This document shows, piece by piece, positions 16,705 through 22,968 of a DNA stretch of 64,000 nt. The stretch spans positions 1-64,000 of the forward strand of contig DRQG01000114.1 of NCBI GenBank assembly GCA_011369465.1, in the 5' to 3' direction. Each line of letters begins with the position of its first letter. The first letter of the stretch is position 1. Origin of the DNA: Caldithrix abyssi. Its GTDB lineage: Bacteria > Calditrichota > Calditrichia > Calditrichales > Calditrichaceae. The notes beneath the pieces were generated by a model. That model was not told the origin of the DNA. It made no database searches and saw only the letters and a list, made by a program, of their open reading frames with translations. The position numbers and the translations under genes were made by a program.

Positions 16705-16866
16705 ACCCAAAAGGCCCTATCCCCGTATTCTCAAATTTGAGATATTTTTCCCATAATTCTTAAAAACAGTAAGAATTTATATACCAACCCAAATCACAAG
16801 CTGTTAATTTTATTTCAATTATAAAGATTGAAGATAATTTAAAATTATGGTACGCTCTTTGCAAAT

Positions 16867-16884
16867 CTATAGTTTACACTATAG
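16867..16884 (+). promoter_or_regulatory. operator-like palindrome upstream of the MerR-led sulfur operon
   Basis: CTATAGT (16867-16873) and ACTATAG (16878-16884) are perfect 7-bp inverted repeats around TTAC. The site ends 28 bp before the regulator's ATG at 16913. A TTTACA overlapping the palindrome and TATTAC 17 bp further on could form the promoter, which would put a bound dimer over the -35. Autoregulation by the adjacent MerR protein is inferred. Confidence 0.55.
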
Positions 16885-16912
16885 TTTTATCTATATATTA
16901 CAATCAAGTTTT

Positions 16913-17377
16913 ATGGTAGAAAAAAATAAAAAAGAAGACGTCCTTTTTCCCATCGGCATCGTAGCCAAGATGTTTGGCATCTCTGTGGCTACTTTACGCC
17001 TGTATGAATCCGAAGGGCTGATCATTCCTTTAAAAAGCAAAGGCCGCCATCGTTTTTACAATAACGATGACATCAAGCGTATTGAATGCATCCGCAGTTT
17101 GATCGAGGAAAAGGGACTCAACCTCACCGGCATCCGCATGCTGCTTTCCACCATTCCTTGTTGGGAGCTGAAGCCCTGTTCCGAAGACGACCGCAAAAAA
17201 TGCGATGCCTATTTTACCTCGGAAATTCCCTGCTGGATGGTGGAAAACAAGGGCGAACGTTGTAAAAATGAAAATTGCCGAGACTGCCCTGTTTACACGC
17301 AATCGGCACAATGTAACAATATAAAATTTATTCTCAAAAAATACTGGAGGTCTAAACCGTATGACGAAACGATTTAA
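16913..17377 (+). CDS. MerR-family regulator with eight-cysteine C-terminal domain
   Basis: This is a 154-aa protein. Residues 10-75 are a MerR winged helix-turn-helix: FPIGIVAKMFGISVATLRLYESEGL, then GRHRFYNNDDIKRI. The effector part is not the usual long coiled coil with a metal loop. It is a short module with Cys at 83, 89, 97, 107, 117, 122, 125 and 134, arranged around two PCW motifs (IPCWELKPC, IPCWMV) and CxxCPVY. That could hold an Fe-S cluster or zinc. An upstream ATG at 16847 is rejected because the operator palindrome would lie inside the gene. Its stop overlaps the start of the molybdoenzyme gene by 17 bp, so the two are translationally coupled. It most likely controls that operon in response to redox or sulfur state. 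Confidence 0.85.
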   Translation: MVEKNKKEDVLFPIGIVAKMFGISVATLRLYESEGLIIPLKSKGRHRFYNNDDIKRIECIRSLIEEKGLNLTGIRMLLSTIPCWELKPCSEDDRKKCDAYFTSEIPCWMVENKGERCKNENCRDCPVYTQSAQCNNIKFILKKYWRSKPYDETI

Positions 17378-19586
17378 AAGACGTCAGTTTATTAAAATCC
17401 TTGGAGCGGGAACCGGCGGCGCAGTGTTGGGCACTACCGCGCTTAAGGCTTTTCAGCCCGGAGAAAAAACGGATAATTTCCACCTGCTTGGCAAGGCAAC
17501 TGACGCGGCAACCCCCACCTACTGCGAAATTTGTTTTTGGAAATGTGCAGGCTGGGTCCACAAAAAAGATGGAAAACCCTGGAAAATCACCGGCAATCCG
17601 GATGATCCCAACAGTAACGGACGATTCTGCCCCCGCGGTACGGGCGGAATAGGCGCCTACACCGATCCGGATCGGCTCAAAACACCTCTTATCCGTGTGG
17701 AGAAAAACGGCAAACAGGTTTTCCGGGAAGCTACCTGGGAAGAGGCTTTTGATTACATTGCCGATAAAATGAAAATGATCAAGAAAAAGTGGGGCCCGGA
17801 ATGCGTTGCCTTGTTTACGCACGGATCCGGAGGCAGCTATTTTAAGACACTCTTAAAAGCCTACGGTTCCAATAACATTGCGGCTCCGTCGTATGCCCAA
17901 TGCCGCGGCCCCCGTGAAGAAGCATACCTGCTTACCTACGGTGAAGGCGTTGGCTCACCTGAACGCACCGATATCCGCAATTCCAAATGTATTGTTCTGA
18001 TCGGTTCGCATATCGGTGAGAATATGCACAACGGTCAGGTACAGGAATTCAGCGAAGCGGTTGCCAACGGAGCAACGGTTATTACCGTAGATCCAAGATT
18101 TTCAACGGCAGCCAGTAAATCCAAATACTGGCTGCCTATCAAACCGGCTACCGACCTTGCCCTGCTGCTGGCCTGGATCAATGTAATTATAGAAGAAGAA
18201 TTGTACGACAAAGAATACGTTAAAAAATATACCTATGGTTTTGATGAATTGAAAAAAGCGGTTAAACACAATACACCGGAATGGGCTTATCCCATCACCA
18301 CCATTAAACCGCATATTATCCGTGAAACAGCACGCGAAATGGCGCGCCATGCCCCGGCCACCATCGTTCATCCGGGACGGCATGTTACCTGGTACGGCGA
18401 CGATACGCAGCGGGTTCGTGCCGGCGCCATTTTAAATGCCTTGTTGGGTAGTTGGGGACGGCGGGGCGGTTTTTACGCGCAAGCCAAAGCGCATGTTAAA
18501 AAATACCCCGTTCCCAAATTCCCCAAACCGAAAAAAAACTGGAAAGACGCCTTTCCTAATCAGTTTCCTTTGGCCAACCTGGCGCTGTCCTCAGGTATTT
18601 GCGACGCGACCATCCCGACGGCAGAACGGGATTGTTCATTTAAAGGCTGGATTGTGTACGGCACTAACCTGATGTTGACCTTGCCCCAGCCTCAACAAAC
18701 CCTGGAAGCAATCCAAAATCTGGAGTTACTGGTAGCGATTGATATAATGCCGGCCGAAATTACGGGTTACGCCGACGTTGTTTTACCCGAATGTACCTAC
18801 CTGGAGCGCTATGACGATTTGCGTATTTCGCCAGGACGCTTCCCCACCGTTGCTTTGCGCGCGCCGGCGTTTGAGCCCAAATACAATACCAAGCCGGCCT
18901 GGTGGATGGCTAAGGAACTGGCTAACCGTCTGGGACTGGAAAAATATTTCCCATGGAAAAACATCGAGGAATATCTGGATTATCGTCTCAAATCCATCGG
19001 CAGTAGTCTGAAGGAAATGAAAGAAATTGGCGTAAAAAAACTGGAGAACGAGGAAGATCTGTATTATCTGGATGGCGAGGAATACGAGTTTAACACCCCC
19101 ACGGGCAAAATAGAACTGTACTCCACAGCTCTGGCCGAGTATGGCTTCGATCCCATTCCCCGCTACACAGCCCATGAAGAACCGCCGGATGGATACTATC
19201 GCCTTCTTTACGGACGCGCACCGATGCACTCATTCAGCCGTACGACCAACAATCCTTTGCTTACCGATGTCAAGAGTGAAAACGAAGTATGGATCAACCC
19301 AAAGGTGGCCCGTGAATGGGGCATAAAGCAAGGTGATTACGTGGTGCTGGAAAATCAGGATGGCGTGCGTTCCAACCGAATACGCGCCAAAGTCACCCAG
19401 CGCATCCGTCACGACGCCATTTATATGGTGCACGGTTTTGGGCGGTCGGATAAGAGGTTACGACGATCCTATTTGCGTGGCGCCGATGACACACACCTGA
19501 TAACCCGTGTAAAACTGGATCCCGTTATGGGGGGCACCGGAATGCGCGTCAATTTTGTTACTTTCAGAAAGGAGGGTGAAGCCTGA
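17361..19586 (+). CDS. Tat-exported molybdopterin oxidoreductase, polysulfide/thiosulfate reductase type, catalytic subunit
   Basis: This is a 741-aa protein with a twin-arginine signal (KRRQFIKILGAG). A 4Fe-4S site is formed by Cys55, Cys58, Cys62 and Cys90 (CEICFWKC ... RFCPRG), followed by the bis-MGD folds of the DMSO reductase family. A cysteine near residue 181 (YAQCRGPREE) stands where PsrA/PhsA-type enzymes supply a Cys ligand to molybdenum. The C-terminal domain starts near YRLLYGRAPMHSFSRTTNNP and ends in the usual cofactor-capping barrel. GGAGG precedes the ATG. With the ferredoxin and NrfD genes that follow, it makes a PsrABC/PhsABC-like periplasmic complex. The substrate could be polysulfide, thiosulfate, tetrathionate or sulfite; the neighbouring sulfur transporters argue for a sulfur compound over arsenate or nitrate. 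Confidence 0.9.
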   Translation: MTKRFKRRQFIKILGAGTGGAVLGTTALKAFQPGEKTDNFHLLGKATDAATPTYCEICFWKCAGWVHKKDGKPWKITGNPDDPNSNGRFCPRGTGGIGAYTDPDRLKTPLIRVEKNGKQVFREATWEEAFDYIADKMKMIKKKWGPECVALFTHGSGGSYFKTLLKAYGSNNIAAPSYAQCRGPREEAYLLTYGEGVGSPERTDIRNSKCIVLIGSHIGENMHNGQVQEFSEAVANGATVITVDPRFSTAASKSKYWLPIKPATDLALLLAWINVIIEEELYDKEYVKKYTYGFDELKKAVKHNTPEWAYPITTIKPHIIRETAREMARHAPATIVHPGRHVTWYGDDTQRVRAGAILNALLGSWGRRGGFYAQAKAHVKKYPVPKFPKPKKNWKDAFPNQFPLANLALSSGICDATIPTAERDCSFKGWIVYGTNLMLTLPQPQQTLEAIQNLELLVAIDIMPAEITGYADVVLPECTYLERYDDLRISPGRFPTVALRAPAFEPKYNTKPAWWMAKELANRLGLEKYFPWKNIEEYLDYRLKSIGSSLKEMKEIGVKKLENEEDLYYLDGEEYEFNTPTGKIELYSTALAEYGFDPIPRYTAHEEPPDGYYRLLYGRAPMHSFSRTTNNPLLTDVKSENEVWINPKVAREWGIKQGDYVVLENQDGVRSNRIRAKVTQRIRHDAIYMVHGFGRSDKRLRRSYLRGADDTHLITRVKLDPVMGGTGMRVNFVTFRKEGEA

Positions 19587-20122
19587 TGTCACGATATGCA
19601 ATGGCCATAGATACGAAACGTTGCGTAGGCTGCACCGATTGTGTAGTGGCCTGCCAAACCGAAAATGACGTTCCGGTAGGATACTGCCGCGACTGGATTG
19701 TGGAAGCCACCAGCGGGGTTTATCCCGAATTGCAACTGGAAATCCGTTCCGAACGCTGCAATCATTGCAGCGATGCCCCCTGCGTTCGCTGCTGCCCGAC
19801 CAGCGCCAGCCATTACGCCGAAGGCGGGATTGTCATGGTGGATCACGATGATTGTATCGGTTGCAAGGCCTGTATCGCCTCCTGTCCTTACGACGCACGA
19901 TACGTTCACCCGGAAGGGTATGTGGACAAATGTACCTTCTGCATACACCGGGTTAAAGAAGGCGAAAATCCGGCTTGTGTTAGCGTTTGCCCCACGCATG
20001 CCATGATTTTTGGCGATCTGGATGATAAAAACAGCGAAATATCCAAAGTGTTGCAAACCCGTAAGCATAAAACGCTGATCCCCGAAGCGGGGACAAAACC
20101 GAATGTATTTTATTTATTGTAA
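19586..20122 (+). CDS. four-cluster ferredoxin subunit (PsrB/DmsB/PhsB type)
   Basis: This 178-aa protein has four Cys motifs for four 4Fe-4S clusters: CVGCTDCVVACQ, CNHCSDAPCVRCCP, CIGCKACIASCP, and CTFC with CVSVCP. This is the standard electron-transfer subunit between a membrane quinol oxidase subunit and a molybdopterin catalytic subunit. It has no signal of its own and should travel with the Tat-exported partner. Its ATG overlaps the stop of the catalytic gene by one base (TGATG), after GGAGGGTG. Confidence 0.94.
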   Translation: MSRYAMAIDTKRCVGCTDCVVACQTENDVPVGYCRDWIVEATSGVYPELQLEIRSERCNHCSDAPCVRCCPTSASHYAEGGIVMVDHDDCIGCKACIASCPYDARYVHPEGYVDKCTFCIHRVKEGENPACVSVCPTHAMIFGDLDDKNSEISKVLQTRKHKTLIPEAGTKPNVFYLL

Positions 20123-20154: not shown

Positions 20155-21120
20155 ATGCAAGAAATCAACATTACATCCGGAAGAATGAACCCGGGCGTGG
20201 ATCCGCTTTTGCACGCCTGGGGCTGGGAAATTCCACTCTACCTGTTCCTGGGCGGGGTGGTGGCCGGCATCCTGTTTTTTTCCGCCGTGTACTATCTGCG
20301 CGGTAAGGCGAATGATTACAAAGCAGCGGTAAAGATAGCGCCTTTGTTTGTACCGCCTTTGCTGGCTCTCGGCCTGCTGGCCCTGTTCCTGGATTTATCA
20401 CACAAACTGTATTTCTGGCGCTTATACACAACCATTCGCTGGGAATCCCCCATGTCCTGGGGCGCCTGGACGCTTTTACTTATTTTCCCGTTGAGCACCG
20501 CCTGGGCAGCTACCTTTGTAAAAGAGTTATATCCCCAATGGGACTGGAAATATGAAATTCTCAACAAACTGGACGATTGGCTTAAAAAGTACCGCACCCA
20601 GATGGCCTGGGCGTTAATCTTCCTGGCTGTCATTCTGGGGATGTACACCGGAATCCTGCTTTCGGCCTTTAACGCGCGTCCCTTCTGGAATACATCCATA
20701 CTCGGACCGCTTTTCCTTACTTCCGGTCTTTCTACCGGGACGGCAGTGGTATTGCTTATCTCGAAAAATCATGAGGAACGCAAACGGTTCAGCAAGCTGG
20801 ACATGGCTTTGATCGGGATTGAGCTGTTCCTGATCATCCATTTGTTTATGGGCTTTTTAGCCAGTACCGAAGTACATATCCACGCAGCGCATATGTTTTT
20901 AGGCGGACCCTACACAGCCGTTTTCTGGTCTTTTGTCGTCGGCCTGGGGTTGTTGTTACCGCTTTTTGCCGAAGTACTGGAACTGAAAGGTTACAAGATA
21001 CCCGTTCAGATTCCGGCAATTCTGGTTCTGGTAGGTGGTTTGATCCTGCGTTTCATCATTGTGGATGCAGGTCAATCTTCCCGTTGGCTGTATAAATTTA
21101 TCGAACAAATGTACTATTAG
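20155..21120 (+). CDS. NrfD/PsrC-family quinone-interacting membrane subunit
   Basis: This 321-aa polytopic protein has about eight or nine membrane helices (for example IPLYLFLGGVVAGILFFSAVYYL and MALIGIELFLIIHLFMGFL). The first-helix motif GWEIPLYLFLGGVVAG is typical of NrfD/PsrC. It should exchange electrons between menaquinone and the ferredoxin subunit, anchoring the periplasmic complex. It follows the ferredoxin gene by 32 bp. Length and topology are normal for the family. Confidence 0.92.
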   Translation: MQEINITSGRMNPGVDPLLHAWGWEIPLYLFLGGVVAGILFFSAVYYLRGKANDYKAAVKIAPLFVPPLLALGLLALFLDLSHKLYFWRLYTTIRWESPMSWGAWTLLLIFPLSTAWAATFVKELYPQWDWKYEILNKLDDWLKKYRTQMAWALIFLAVILGMYTGILLSAFNARPFWNTSILGPLFLTSGLSTGTAVVLLISKNHEERKRFSKLDMALIGIELFLIIHLFMGFLASTEVHIHAAHMFLGGPYTAVFWSFVVGLGLLLPLFAEVLELKGYKIPVQIPAILVLVGGLILRFIIVDAGQSSRWLYKFIEQMYY

Positions 21121-21162: not shown

Positions 21163-21666
21163 ATGGAAGAAAAAAAGTATATGTCCCCTTACGTGGCGGG
21201 CATCGGCCTGGGGATAACCCTTTTGCTGGCCTTTGTTTTTATGGGCCGCGGGTTGGGAGCTTCCGGTGCGATGATGCGTTTTGAAGTGTGGTTTCTTAAT
21301 TTATTCGCATCCGATCACGTCGCTTCCAATCCCTATTTCAGCAAATATGCAAATAATCCCCTTAACAACTGGCTCGTTTACGAAATTATCGGGGTAATGA
21401 TTGGCGGATTTATATCCGGAGCTTTGGCAGGACGACTTAAATTTAAAATCGGGAAAGGCCCGAATATTTCCAATAAAGGCCGTTTAATCCTGGCTTTTAC
21501 GGGCGGTACATTGATGGGCTTTGCCGCCCGTTTGTCCCGCGGCTGCACCAGCGGACTGGCCCTGACCGGCGGCGCCACGCTGGCCTTAGGCGGCTGGGTT
21601 TTTATGTTTTCCGTATTTGCCGGGGGATATGCTCTGGCTTATTTCCTGCGGAAACAATGGATATAA
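21163..21666 (+). CDS. YeeE/YedE-family sulfur transport protein, first half
   Basis: This 167-aa membrane protein has four to five helices. The family signature is a glycine-rich helix with a single cysteine: FAARLSRGCTSGLALTGG. In TsuA/YeeE, the thiosulfate importers of this family, such cysteines line the path and relay the substrate. Here the transporter is split over two genes, as is common in bacteria outside the enterics. It is 42 bp downstream of the NrfD gene and 31 bp upstream of the second half. Confidence 0.88.
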   Translation: MEEKKYMSPYVAGIGLGITLLLAFVFMGRGLGASGAMMRFEVWFLNLFASDHVASNPYFSKYANNPLNNWLVYEIIGVMIGGFISGALAGRLKFKIGKGPNISNKGRLILAFTGGTLMGFAARLSRGCTSGLALTGGATLALGGWVFMFSVFAGGYALAYFLRKQWI

Positions 21667-21697: not shown

Positions 21698-22288
21698 ATG
21701 GCACCTTTTTATAAATTCGGATATTTCAGCGAACAAACCGGTTTTCTGATCGCTCTTATTTTAGGCATCGGTTTCGGTTTTTGGCTGGAACGCGCCGGTT
21801 TCGGCAATAGCCGTAAACTGGCTCTGCAATTCTACTTTAAAGATATTACCGTGTTAAAAGTAATGTTTACAGCAATCGTCGTGGCTATGCTGGGTCTTAT
21901 GTACCTTTCCCTGTTCGGCTGGCTGGATATTAGTAAAGTATATATTAATCCAACCTATATCGGGGCGCAGGCTGTTGGCGGATTATTACTGGGTTTTGGT
22001 TTCATCATCGGAGGCTATTGCCCGGGTACCGCCGTTGTAGGCGGCGTAACCGGCCGTATTGACGGATATATTTTTATTTTAGGCGCGCTCTTCGGCATGT
22101 TTGTTTTTGGCGAAATGTTCCCCGCCATCGAGGACTTATTTCTATCCGGCAATATGGGCGATGTGCGTTTGATGGATTATTTTAATTGGTCCAGCGGTGT
22201 TACCGCTCTTGTGGTTGTCCTGCTGGCTATTGGTATGTTTATTGGCGGCGAGTGGCTGGAAAGAAAATACGGAGGACAGGAAGCATGA
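21698..22288 (+). CDS. YeeE/YedE-family sulfur transport protein, second half
   Basis: This 196-aa membrane protein with five to six helices is homologous to the preceding gene. It has its own signature cysteine in FIIGGYCPGTAVVGG and the WLERAGFGNSRKLALQFYF segment seen at the start of many YeeE proteins. GTGGAG precedes its ATG, so this is a true second gene and not a broken fusion. The pair should form one pore moving thiosulfate or another sulfane-sulfur ion across the inner membrane. Its stop overlaps the start of the rhodanese gene (ATGA). Confidence 0.88.
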   Translation: MAPFYKFGYFSEQTGFLIALILGIGFGFWLERAGFGNSRKLALQFYFKDITVLKVMFTAIVVAMLGLMYLSLFGWLDISKVYINPTYIGAQAVGGLLLGFGFIIGGYCPGTAVVGGVTGRIDGYIFILGALFGMFVFGEMFPAIEDLFLSGNMGDVRLMDYFNWSSGVTALVVVLLAIGMFIGGEWLERKYGGQEA

Positions 22289-22917
22289 AGAATCTAAATC
22301 TGAAAACAATCGGTTTTGGCACGCTGATTTTATTAGGCCTCATCCTGGCTTTTTCTCCGGTGGACCAAATGGCGCACAAACATGTGGATACGGCCTTTCT
22401 TTTACAGGAAATCAGCAACCAGAGCCATTATGTTGCGCCGGATGAGGTAGCCCATTGGGTCATTGATAAAGATCCTTCGGTACAAATTATCGACATCCGT
22501 TCCAAGGAGGATTACGATAAATATCATATTCCCGGCAGCGAATGGATTCCTCTCGCTAATCTGTTAAGTGATGAAGCGAAAGATATACTCGACCCCGACA
22601 AAACCATCGTGCTGGCTTCCAACGGAAATTCCAAAGCCGCTCAGGCCTGGGTTTTACTAAAAGAGGCCGGCTATGATGACGTGTATGTGCTGATGGGTGG
22701 GATGAATTACTGGGTGCAGGTATTCACCAATCCCGAAAAGCCTAACGGCGCTTATACCGACGAGGAAATCTTTGCATACCAGTTTCGGAAAGCGGCAGGC
22801 CCGGTGTTAATGGGAACGCAAGTTGCGGCCAGTACAGATACAGAGATAAACAAACCTAAAAAAGTAATCAAACGCAGGCGTAAGAAGCCTTCCAAAAAAC
22901 TTGATGAAGGGTGTTAA
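22285..22917 (+). CDS. membrane-anchored rhodanese-fold protein, no active-site Cys, C-terminal Cys on basic arm
   Basis: This 210-aa protein has an N-terminal membrane segment (TIGFGTLILLGLILAF) and then a single rhodanese domain at about residues 48-150: VQIIDIRSKEDYDKYHIPGS and VYVLMGGMNYW. The catalytic loop, normally CxxGxR, reads LASNGNSKAA (110-119) and has no cysteine. A linker leads to a Lys/Arg-rich tail (KKVIKRRRKKPSKK) that ends EGC. Cys210 is the only cysteine in the protein and is the last residue. GGAGG precedes the ATG, which overlaps the stop of the YeeE gene. A terminal cysteine on a flexible tail recalls the DsrC arm, so a sulfur-carrier role at the membrane is plausible but unproven. 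Confidence 0.85.
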   Translation: MKNLNLKTIGFGTLILLGLILAFSPVDQMAHKHVDTAFLLQEISNQSHYVAPDEVAHWVIDKDPSVQIIDIRSKEDYDKYHIPGSEWIPLANLLSDEAKDILDPDKTIVLASNGNSKAAQAWVLLKEAGYDDVYVLMGGMNYWVQVFTNPEKPNGAYTDEEIFAYQFRKAAGPVLMGTQVAASTDTEINKPKKVIKRRRKKPSKKLDEGC

Positions 22918-22929
22918 ACAGTCTGTTGT

Positions 22930-22968
22930 AAAAAAGGCATATAGATATGTTTCTATATGCCTTTTTTT
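22930..22968. terminator. bidirectional intrinsic terminator between sulfur operon and DUF971 gene
   Basis: GGCATATAGA (22936-22945) pairs perfectly with TCTATATGCC (22952-22961) around a 6-nt loop. It is flanked by A6 on the left and T7 on the right, so it can stop transcription on either strand. It ends the plus-strand sulfur operon and the minus-strand DUF971 unit. Confidence 0.88.

Follow-up and report, generated by a model that had tools for sequence, protein, structure and literature searches.

What could a rhodanese-fold protein do when its catalytic cysteine is missing and the only cysteine that it has is its very last residue? This question is raised by a gene of Caldithrix abyssi contig DRQG01000114.1 (assembly GCA_011369465.1), of which positions 1-64,000 were analysed, a stretch of 64,000 nucleotides that we call the window. 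The gene, here named Rhd, lies at 22285-22917 on the forward strand and encodes 210 residues; its ATG overlaps the TGA of the upstream YeeE half (ATGA, 22285-22288). Residues 62-144 (22468-22716, +) match the rhodanese profile Pfam PF00581 with an E-value of 3e-19, which is above the cut-off. The AF2 model, made with a 70-row alignment as input, has a mean pLDDT of 89.9, and its matches in the PDB by Foldseek are rhodanese domains, thus the protein belongs to the rhodanese superfamily by profile, model and structural comparison. The domain is preceded by an N-terminal transmembrane anchor (residues 6-23; 22300-22353, +), which is a helix in the model, and is followed by a helix at residues 159-176 and a basic tail (residues 177-210; 22813-22914, +). 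The tail ends in KKLDEGC, is modeled without secondary structure at a pLDDT of 55-78, and is present in all complete members of the family. The first-pass annotation had described a rhodanese fold without its catalytic cysteine, having LASNGNSKAA in place of CxxGxR and a lone cysteine at the end, and this description holds. The stretch is the right one, as IVLA-S-NGNSK aligns without gaps to the usual YCRSGNRS loop and places Ser112 (TCC, 22618-22620, +) at the position of the cysteine that an active rhodanese sulfurtransferase needs. The one cysteine in the 210 residues is Cys210 (TGT, 22912-22914, +), directly before TAA, and this is the proposed sulfur-carrying thiol. No family-specific model for Rhd was found in Pfam or NCBIfam.

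Rhd is the last gene of a PsrABC-like polysulfide-reductase operon that also encodes two YeeE half-pores, and the genes upstream of it are on the same strand with ends that overlap or nearly touch. The operon opens with a MerR-type regulator (16847-17377, +; Pfam MerR_1) and closes with a terminator hairpin (22930-22967, +; -20.5 kcal/mol, z -7.9 against shuffles). The regulator has nine conserved cysteines in its C-terminal part in the pattern PCW..PC..C..PCW..C..C..CxVY..C, kept in 44-45 of 45 operon-linked homologues, and a search of this region found no match in Pfam or NCBIfam; it is possibly an Fe-S or persulfide sensor. The enzyme genes are a PsrA/PhsA-like molybdopterin oxidoreductase (17361-19586, +) with the twin-arginine signal KRRQFIK, a PsrB-like 4Fe-4S subunit (19586-20122, +; Pfam Fer4_11) and a PsrC/NrfD-like membrane subunit (20155-21120, +; Pfam NrfD, E 7.9e-49). 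This is the make-up of a PsrABC/PhsABC complex, with a Tat-exported Mo subunit, a 4Fe-4S subunit and an NrfD subunit, and the PsrA score falls under the PhsA equivalog cut-off. A Psr/Phs complex has been reported for C. abyssi, encoded close to genes for sulfur transferases, yet the organism respired neither sulfur nor thiosulfate (PMC5317091). If that complex is the one encoded here, which would fit the pattern, this hints at a possible role of the operon in the import or oxidation of sulfur rather than in its respiration. In another Calditrichota genome (G024) the operon is followed by a flavoprotein which, from the appearance of its sequence, is like sulfide:quinone oxidoreductase (L072, 9402-10640).

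Between the enzyme genes and Rhd are the two half-size YeeE/YedE pore subunits. YeeE1 (21163-21666, +; Pfam Sulf_transp 175-309) is of the C-half, PmpA-like type and YeeE2 (21698-22288, +; Pfam Sulf_transp 10-149) of the N-half, PmpB-like type, so that these are PF04143 halves with one conserved cysteine each, of the same kind as the known half-pores PmpA and PmpB (PMC11582611). By profile match to 6leo and 8j4c, Cys128 of YeeE1 (21544-21546, +) corresponds to StYeeE Cys293 and Cys108 of YeeE2 (22019-22021, +) to StYeeE Cys91. The cysteine of the GC(T/M)SG motif in YeeE1 and the CPGT motif of YeeE2 are each kept in 81 of 81 sequences. In StYeeE the relay order is Cys293 first, Cys91 second and Cys22 third (PMC11073785). 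The position of Cys22 is Gly36 in YeeE2, and in the readable members of the wider set it is occupied by Gly, Ser or Asn; the half-pores thus retain two relay cysteines without the third, inner one.

The evidence that the terminal cysteine matters begins with its conservation inside the phylum. A single-sequence search of the genome contigs with Rhd gave no matches, therefore relatives were gathered through a whole-genome search and a YeeE1 alignment; sixty relatives were searched, and the Calditrichota search, made with an Rhd profile, did not select through YeeE1. Among 40 Calditrichota genomes the family is present in 21, the gene order is the same in nearly all of their loci, and Rhd accompanies a close YeeE2 wherever a genome of the phylum has one. 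All 19 complete close homologues, the one in the window included, have exactly one cysteine, which is the last residue and comes after EG. The 18 others come from 18 other genomes (one further relative reaches the contig end before its tail), and this rules out a sequencing error at the last codons, which had been raised as a possible source of the terminal cysteine.

Beyond the phylum, the scan with the YeeE1 alignment gave 483 loci, of which the best 80 were used. These were found through YeeE1, thus their YeeE linkage is partly built in by the sampling. The best 80 of the 483 include Ignavibacteriota, Bacteroidota, Chlorobiota, KSB1, Gemmatimonadota, Acidobacteriota, Neomarinimicrobiota, Bdellovibrionota, Pseudomonadota and others, and nearly all have the order YeeE1-YeeE2-Rhd. 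We aligned 70 complete YeeE-linked Rhd homologues (alignment A4) from about ten phyla and down to 19% identity, in which no column is invariant other than D70, G139 and C210. A cysteine is among the last three residues in all 70 and is the last residue in 67; in the three exceptions (GGCG, GGGCSG and GGACF) it is followed by one or two further residues. The end is [DE]GC in 63 of the 70, and the tail cysteine is the sole cysteine in 51. The catalytic loop column, on the other hand, reads S in 51, G in 11, A in 4, and C, D, F and T in one each. Mapped on a family tree computed with the loop left out, the loop position needs at least 10 changes and the tail cysteine none. This pattern is what would be expected if the loop is free to vary and the tail thiol is functional. 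The first-pass annotation had suggested checking whether loss of the loop cysteine goes together with gain of the terminal one, and this is what we see (69 of 70 lack a loop cysteine and 70 of 70 have the tail cysteine); no homologue with a loop cysteine but without the tail cysteine occurs among the 70. Given this invariance and the sampled control set of about 36 unrelated rhodaneses, of which one ends in cysteine and many keep a CxxGxR-type loop, a terminal cysteine by chance can be ruled out.

A few single loci deserve comment. The lone sequence with a cysteine in the loop is an Ignavibacteriae Rhd (L123, 5033-5686), which has LVCTDG together with a terminal EGC, a possible reversion. One apparent exception to the tail cysteine (L149, 4979-5581) is probably a damaged copy, a misread or an assembly error, because its frame stops early (PPV*) just before an end in the same frame (..ELRYRC*). 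Finally, a contig labelled Heimdallarchaeota (L167) has an Rhd loop and tail identical to those of a Calditrichota genome (G037, L019) and is probably mis-binned.

On balance we lean towards reading Rhd as a sulfur carrier that is tethered to the membrane, works through its tail cysteine and acts for a two-part YeeE/YedE (PmpAB-like) pore. The tail-cysteine layout is kept in about ten groups, always beside a sulfur-transport pore, thus Rhd probably hands sulfur to that pore. The rhodanese fold would have lost its own sulfurtransferase chemistry and been retained as a docking scaffold, leaving the last-residue thiol, on a basic and flexible arm, as the working group. A sulfur enzyme at the outer face, PsrABC-type here and a secreted multi-domain rhodanese elsewhere, would make or use sulfane sulfur, which the tail cysteine could hold as a persulfide or a thiosulfate adduct. 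The tail would then bring the sulfur to the pore mouth, close to Cys128 of YeeE1, the first pore cysteine, from where it may pass to Cys108 of YeeE2 and across the membrane. There is precedent for such an arm in the swinging-arm cysteine of SoxY (PMC5336275), and it has been suggested that the SoxY cysteine could pass sulfur to the cysteines of SoxT/YeeE (PMC11582611). The same authors doubt direct transfer from cysteine to cysteine inside YeeE, where the cysteines are about 7 A apart (PMC11582611). At the cytoplasmic exit of StYeeE, Cys17 of YeeD acts as a 'fourth' cysteine (PMC11073785); Rhd could be its mirror image, an outer 'zeroth cysteine'.

This reading places the rhodanese domain and the tail on the periplasmic side, which we consider quite likely on the basis of the transmembrane helix count set on the StYeeE topology. 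In an AF2 model of a natural YeeE2-Rhd fusion, used for the helix count only since its confidence is low (67.6), five long helices belong to YeeE2 and the Rhd anchor adds a sixth. Residue 22 of StYeeE, which comes right after the first helix, is at the cytoplasmic face (PMC11073785), and with this count the end of YeeE2 falls inside and Rhd outside. The Tat signal of PsrA agrees with this placement, as do the signal-peptide-like N-termini of the secreted rhodaneses that stand in place of PsrABC at other loci. The opposite arrangement, with domain and tail in the cytoplasm and the tail cysteine as an inner acceptor that replaces YeeD and the third YeeE cysteine, we judge unlikely. It does have the attraction of filling the gap left by the absent inner pore cysteine, and the tail, with a mean net charge of +5 over the last 30 residues, is so basic that the positive-inside rule favors the cytoplasm for it. 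Both the helix count and the N-termini of the replacement partners speak against it. The charges around the anchor are mixed (n=70), being higher in the N-terminal than in the C-terminal flank in 42 of 70 and equal in 14 of 70, and in the fusions the comparison of the linker with the residues after the transmembrane helix is ambiguous.

A second way to doubt the carrier reading is to look for a different partner or a different use of the thiol. Rhd shares its operon with PsrA and, by the Tat signal, would share its compartment, so that the tail cysteine might give polysulfide sulfur to the PsrA site or take sulfur from it, in the manner of a Sud-like donor whose thiol has been shifted to a tail, with the YeeE pair being a mere neighbour. 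A parallel exists in the C. abyssi metallopterin ergothioneine synthase (CaMES), where a near-terminal cysteine (1135 of 1136) is essential in the sulfur relay to the bis-MGD enzyme (PMC9516567); CaMES is a different protein from Rhd but a useful precedent. We nevertheless consider service to the Mo enzyme rather unlikely. Four of the seven genomes tested (G029, G073, G074 and G087) have the YeeE pair with Rhd and lack a PsrA orthologue, having only distant relatives of about 30% identity; part of the YeeE1 stretch of G029 is masked. Fusions of YeeE2 to Rhd, each of those examined retaining the Rhd transmembrane helix, occur in several lineages (L025, L092, L093, L132, L134, L151, L154, L165 and L172) and imply that Rhd physically associates with the pore, while no fusion of Rhd to a Psr subunit was seen in the loci examined. 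Because of these two observations the YeeE pair, and not PsrA, is the constant and obligate partner, and the Rhd module is independent of the Mo enzyme of the window operon. At eight loci (L136, L145, L149, L164 and L166; L132, L134 and L139) secreted rhodaneses of two or more domains (310-322 and about 540-557 residues) lie directly before YeeE1 in place of PsrABC, and several of them keep cysteine loops such as FYCDSG and IYCGTG. The thiol could also act without carrying sulfur, as a redox or structural latch whose disulfide with a pore cysteine gates or anchors the complex. For this it would be enough to have a lone thiol on a basic arm close to the two thiols of the pore, and no transferase chemistry would be needed, an argument drawn from the conservation among the 70. 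We find such a latch improbable, as it leaves the rhodanese scaffold and the usual sulfur-enzyme neighbours unexplained and could tolerate other positions, yet the cysteine is always within three residues of the end. Least probable of all, and to our minds very improbable, is that EGC serves as a tag for sorting or modification with no relation to sulfur transfer. Being short and placed at the very C-terminus behind a basic segment, the motif does look like a tag; however, the pattern K[KR][KR]EGC-stop had 13 matches in 26 genomes, at most one per genome and all on the Rhd gene, and a search for [DE]GC-stop (TAG stops omitted) in the genome of the window found none on other long ORFs, the longest other frame being 93 codons. 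Given also how rare such an end is on other rhodaneses, a general tag can be set aside.

Two of the genomes lacking a PsrA orthologue offer a separate observation on their molybdopterin proteins. The distant relatives of PsrA in G073 (C1:1741026-1742987) and G074 (C1:1997617-1999617), about 30% identical to it, belong to frames of about 1150 residues, which is the length of CaMES.

The carrier reading bears on a question that has been raised for SoxT, namely how sulfur reaches YeeE/YedE pores from outside and in what form it is carried (PMC11582611). Rhd is a dedicated YeeE partner that is sometimes fused to the pore and has one invariant thiol, which makes the outer-side question testable through a single residue. 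No description of this rhodanese tail together with YeeE was found in the literature that we searched. More broadly, it is possible, at a likelihood we would put a little short of even, that tethered periplasmic carriers of this type operate across about ten phyla, with an enzyme fold without its active site and a thiol arm loading the YeeE relay from outside, so that sulfur would move from thiol to thiol and not as a free ion. For annotation, a dead rhodanese with a [DE]GC end beside YeeE halves can serve as a signature in uncultured sulfur-cycling bacteria, many of which have genes now annotated as 'rhodanese-like' that would be affected. For the family as a whole, a label of sulfurtransferase or rhodanese enzyme is probably wrong.

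Comparison with known systems helps to place Rhd. The neighbouring complex is close to the PsrABC of Thermus thermophilus (2vpw), which is the best PDB match of PsrA over its full length (E 1.8e-217) and shares the subunit order, but the window operon adds YeeE1, YeeE2 and Rhd under the Cys-rich MerR regulator. The half-pores resemble PmpA and PmpB in that each half has one cysteine, at the Cys91 and Cys293 positions; they differ in being longer (167 and 196 aa) and in being accompanied by Rhd and usually by PsrABC. Sud of Wolinella (1qxn), which Rhd matches at 1.4e-5, is likewise a rhodanese domain tied to polysulfide reductase. Sud is a soluble dimer that works through its loop cysteine, whereas Rhd adjoins PsrABC without a loop cysteine and has a transmembrane anchor and a tail. 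YeeD/TsuB, the partner of YeeE/TsuA in Spirochaeta thermophila, also adds a cysteine at an end of the YeeE path, and fusions of the two are known; its fold, however, is of the TusA type and it stands at the cytoplasmic exit, while Rhd is a rhodanese fold that is probably periplasmic.

The first-pass annotation had proposed a docking platform whose tail bears a persulfide close to the YeeE pore, after the device of DsrC. Such a carrier stands as the best explanation, and the DsrC device does not. DsrC/TusE does share a near-terminal cysteine on a mobile C-terminal arm, but it has another fold, is cytoplasmic and normally has two conserved cysteines, whereas Rhd has one on a rhodanese fold. SoxY is the better analogue. 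In SoxYZ a periplasmic cysteine on a swinging arm takes sulfur intermediates between enzymes and has been suggested to feed the YeeE-like SoxT, and Rhd has the corresponding single C-terminal cysteine on an arm that is unstructured in the model, within three residues of the end in 70 of 70. The terminal variants GGCG and GGGCSG presumably recall the Gly-rich end of SoxY. The differences are that SoxY has another fold and acts in the Sox pathway as a soluble heterodimer with SoxZ, while Rhd is a membrane-anchored rhodanese fold, usually ending in EGC, in an operon that has no SoxZ-like gene in the window. We therefore class Rhd not as a member of the SoxY, DsrC, Sud or YeeD families but as a tail-thiol sulfur carrier and YeeE partner protein.
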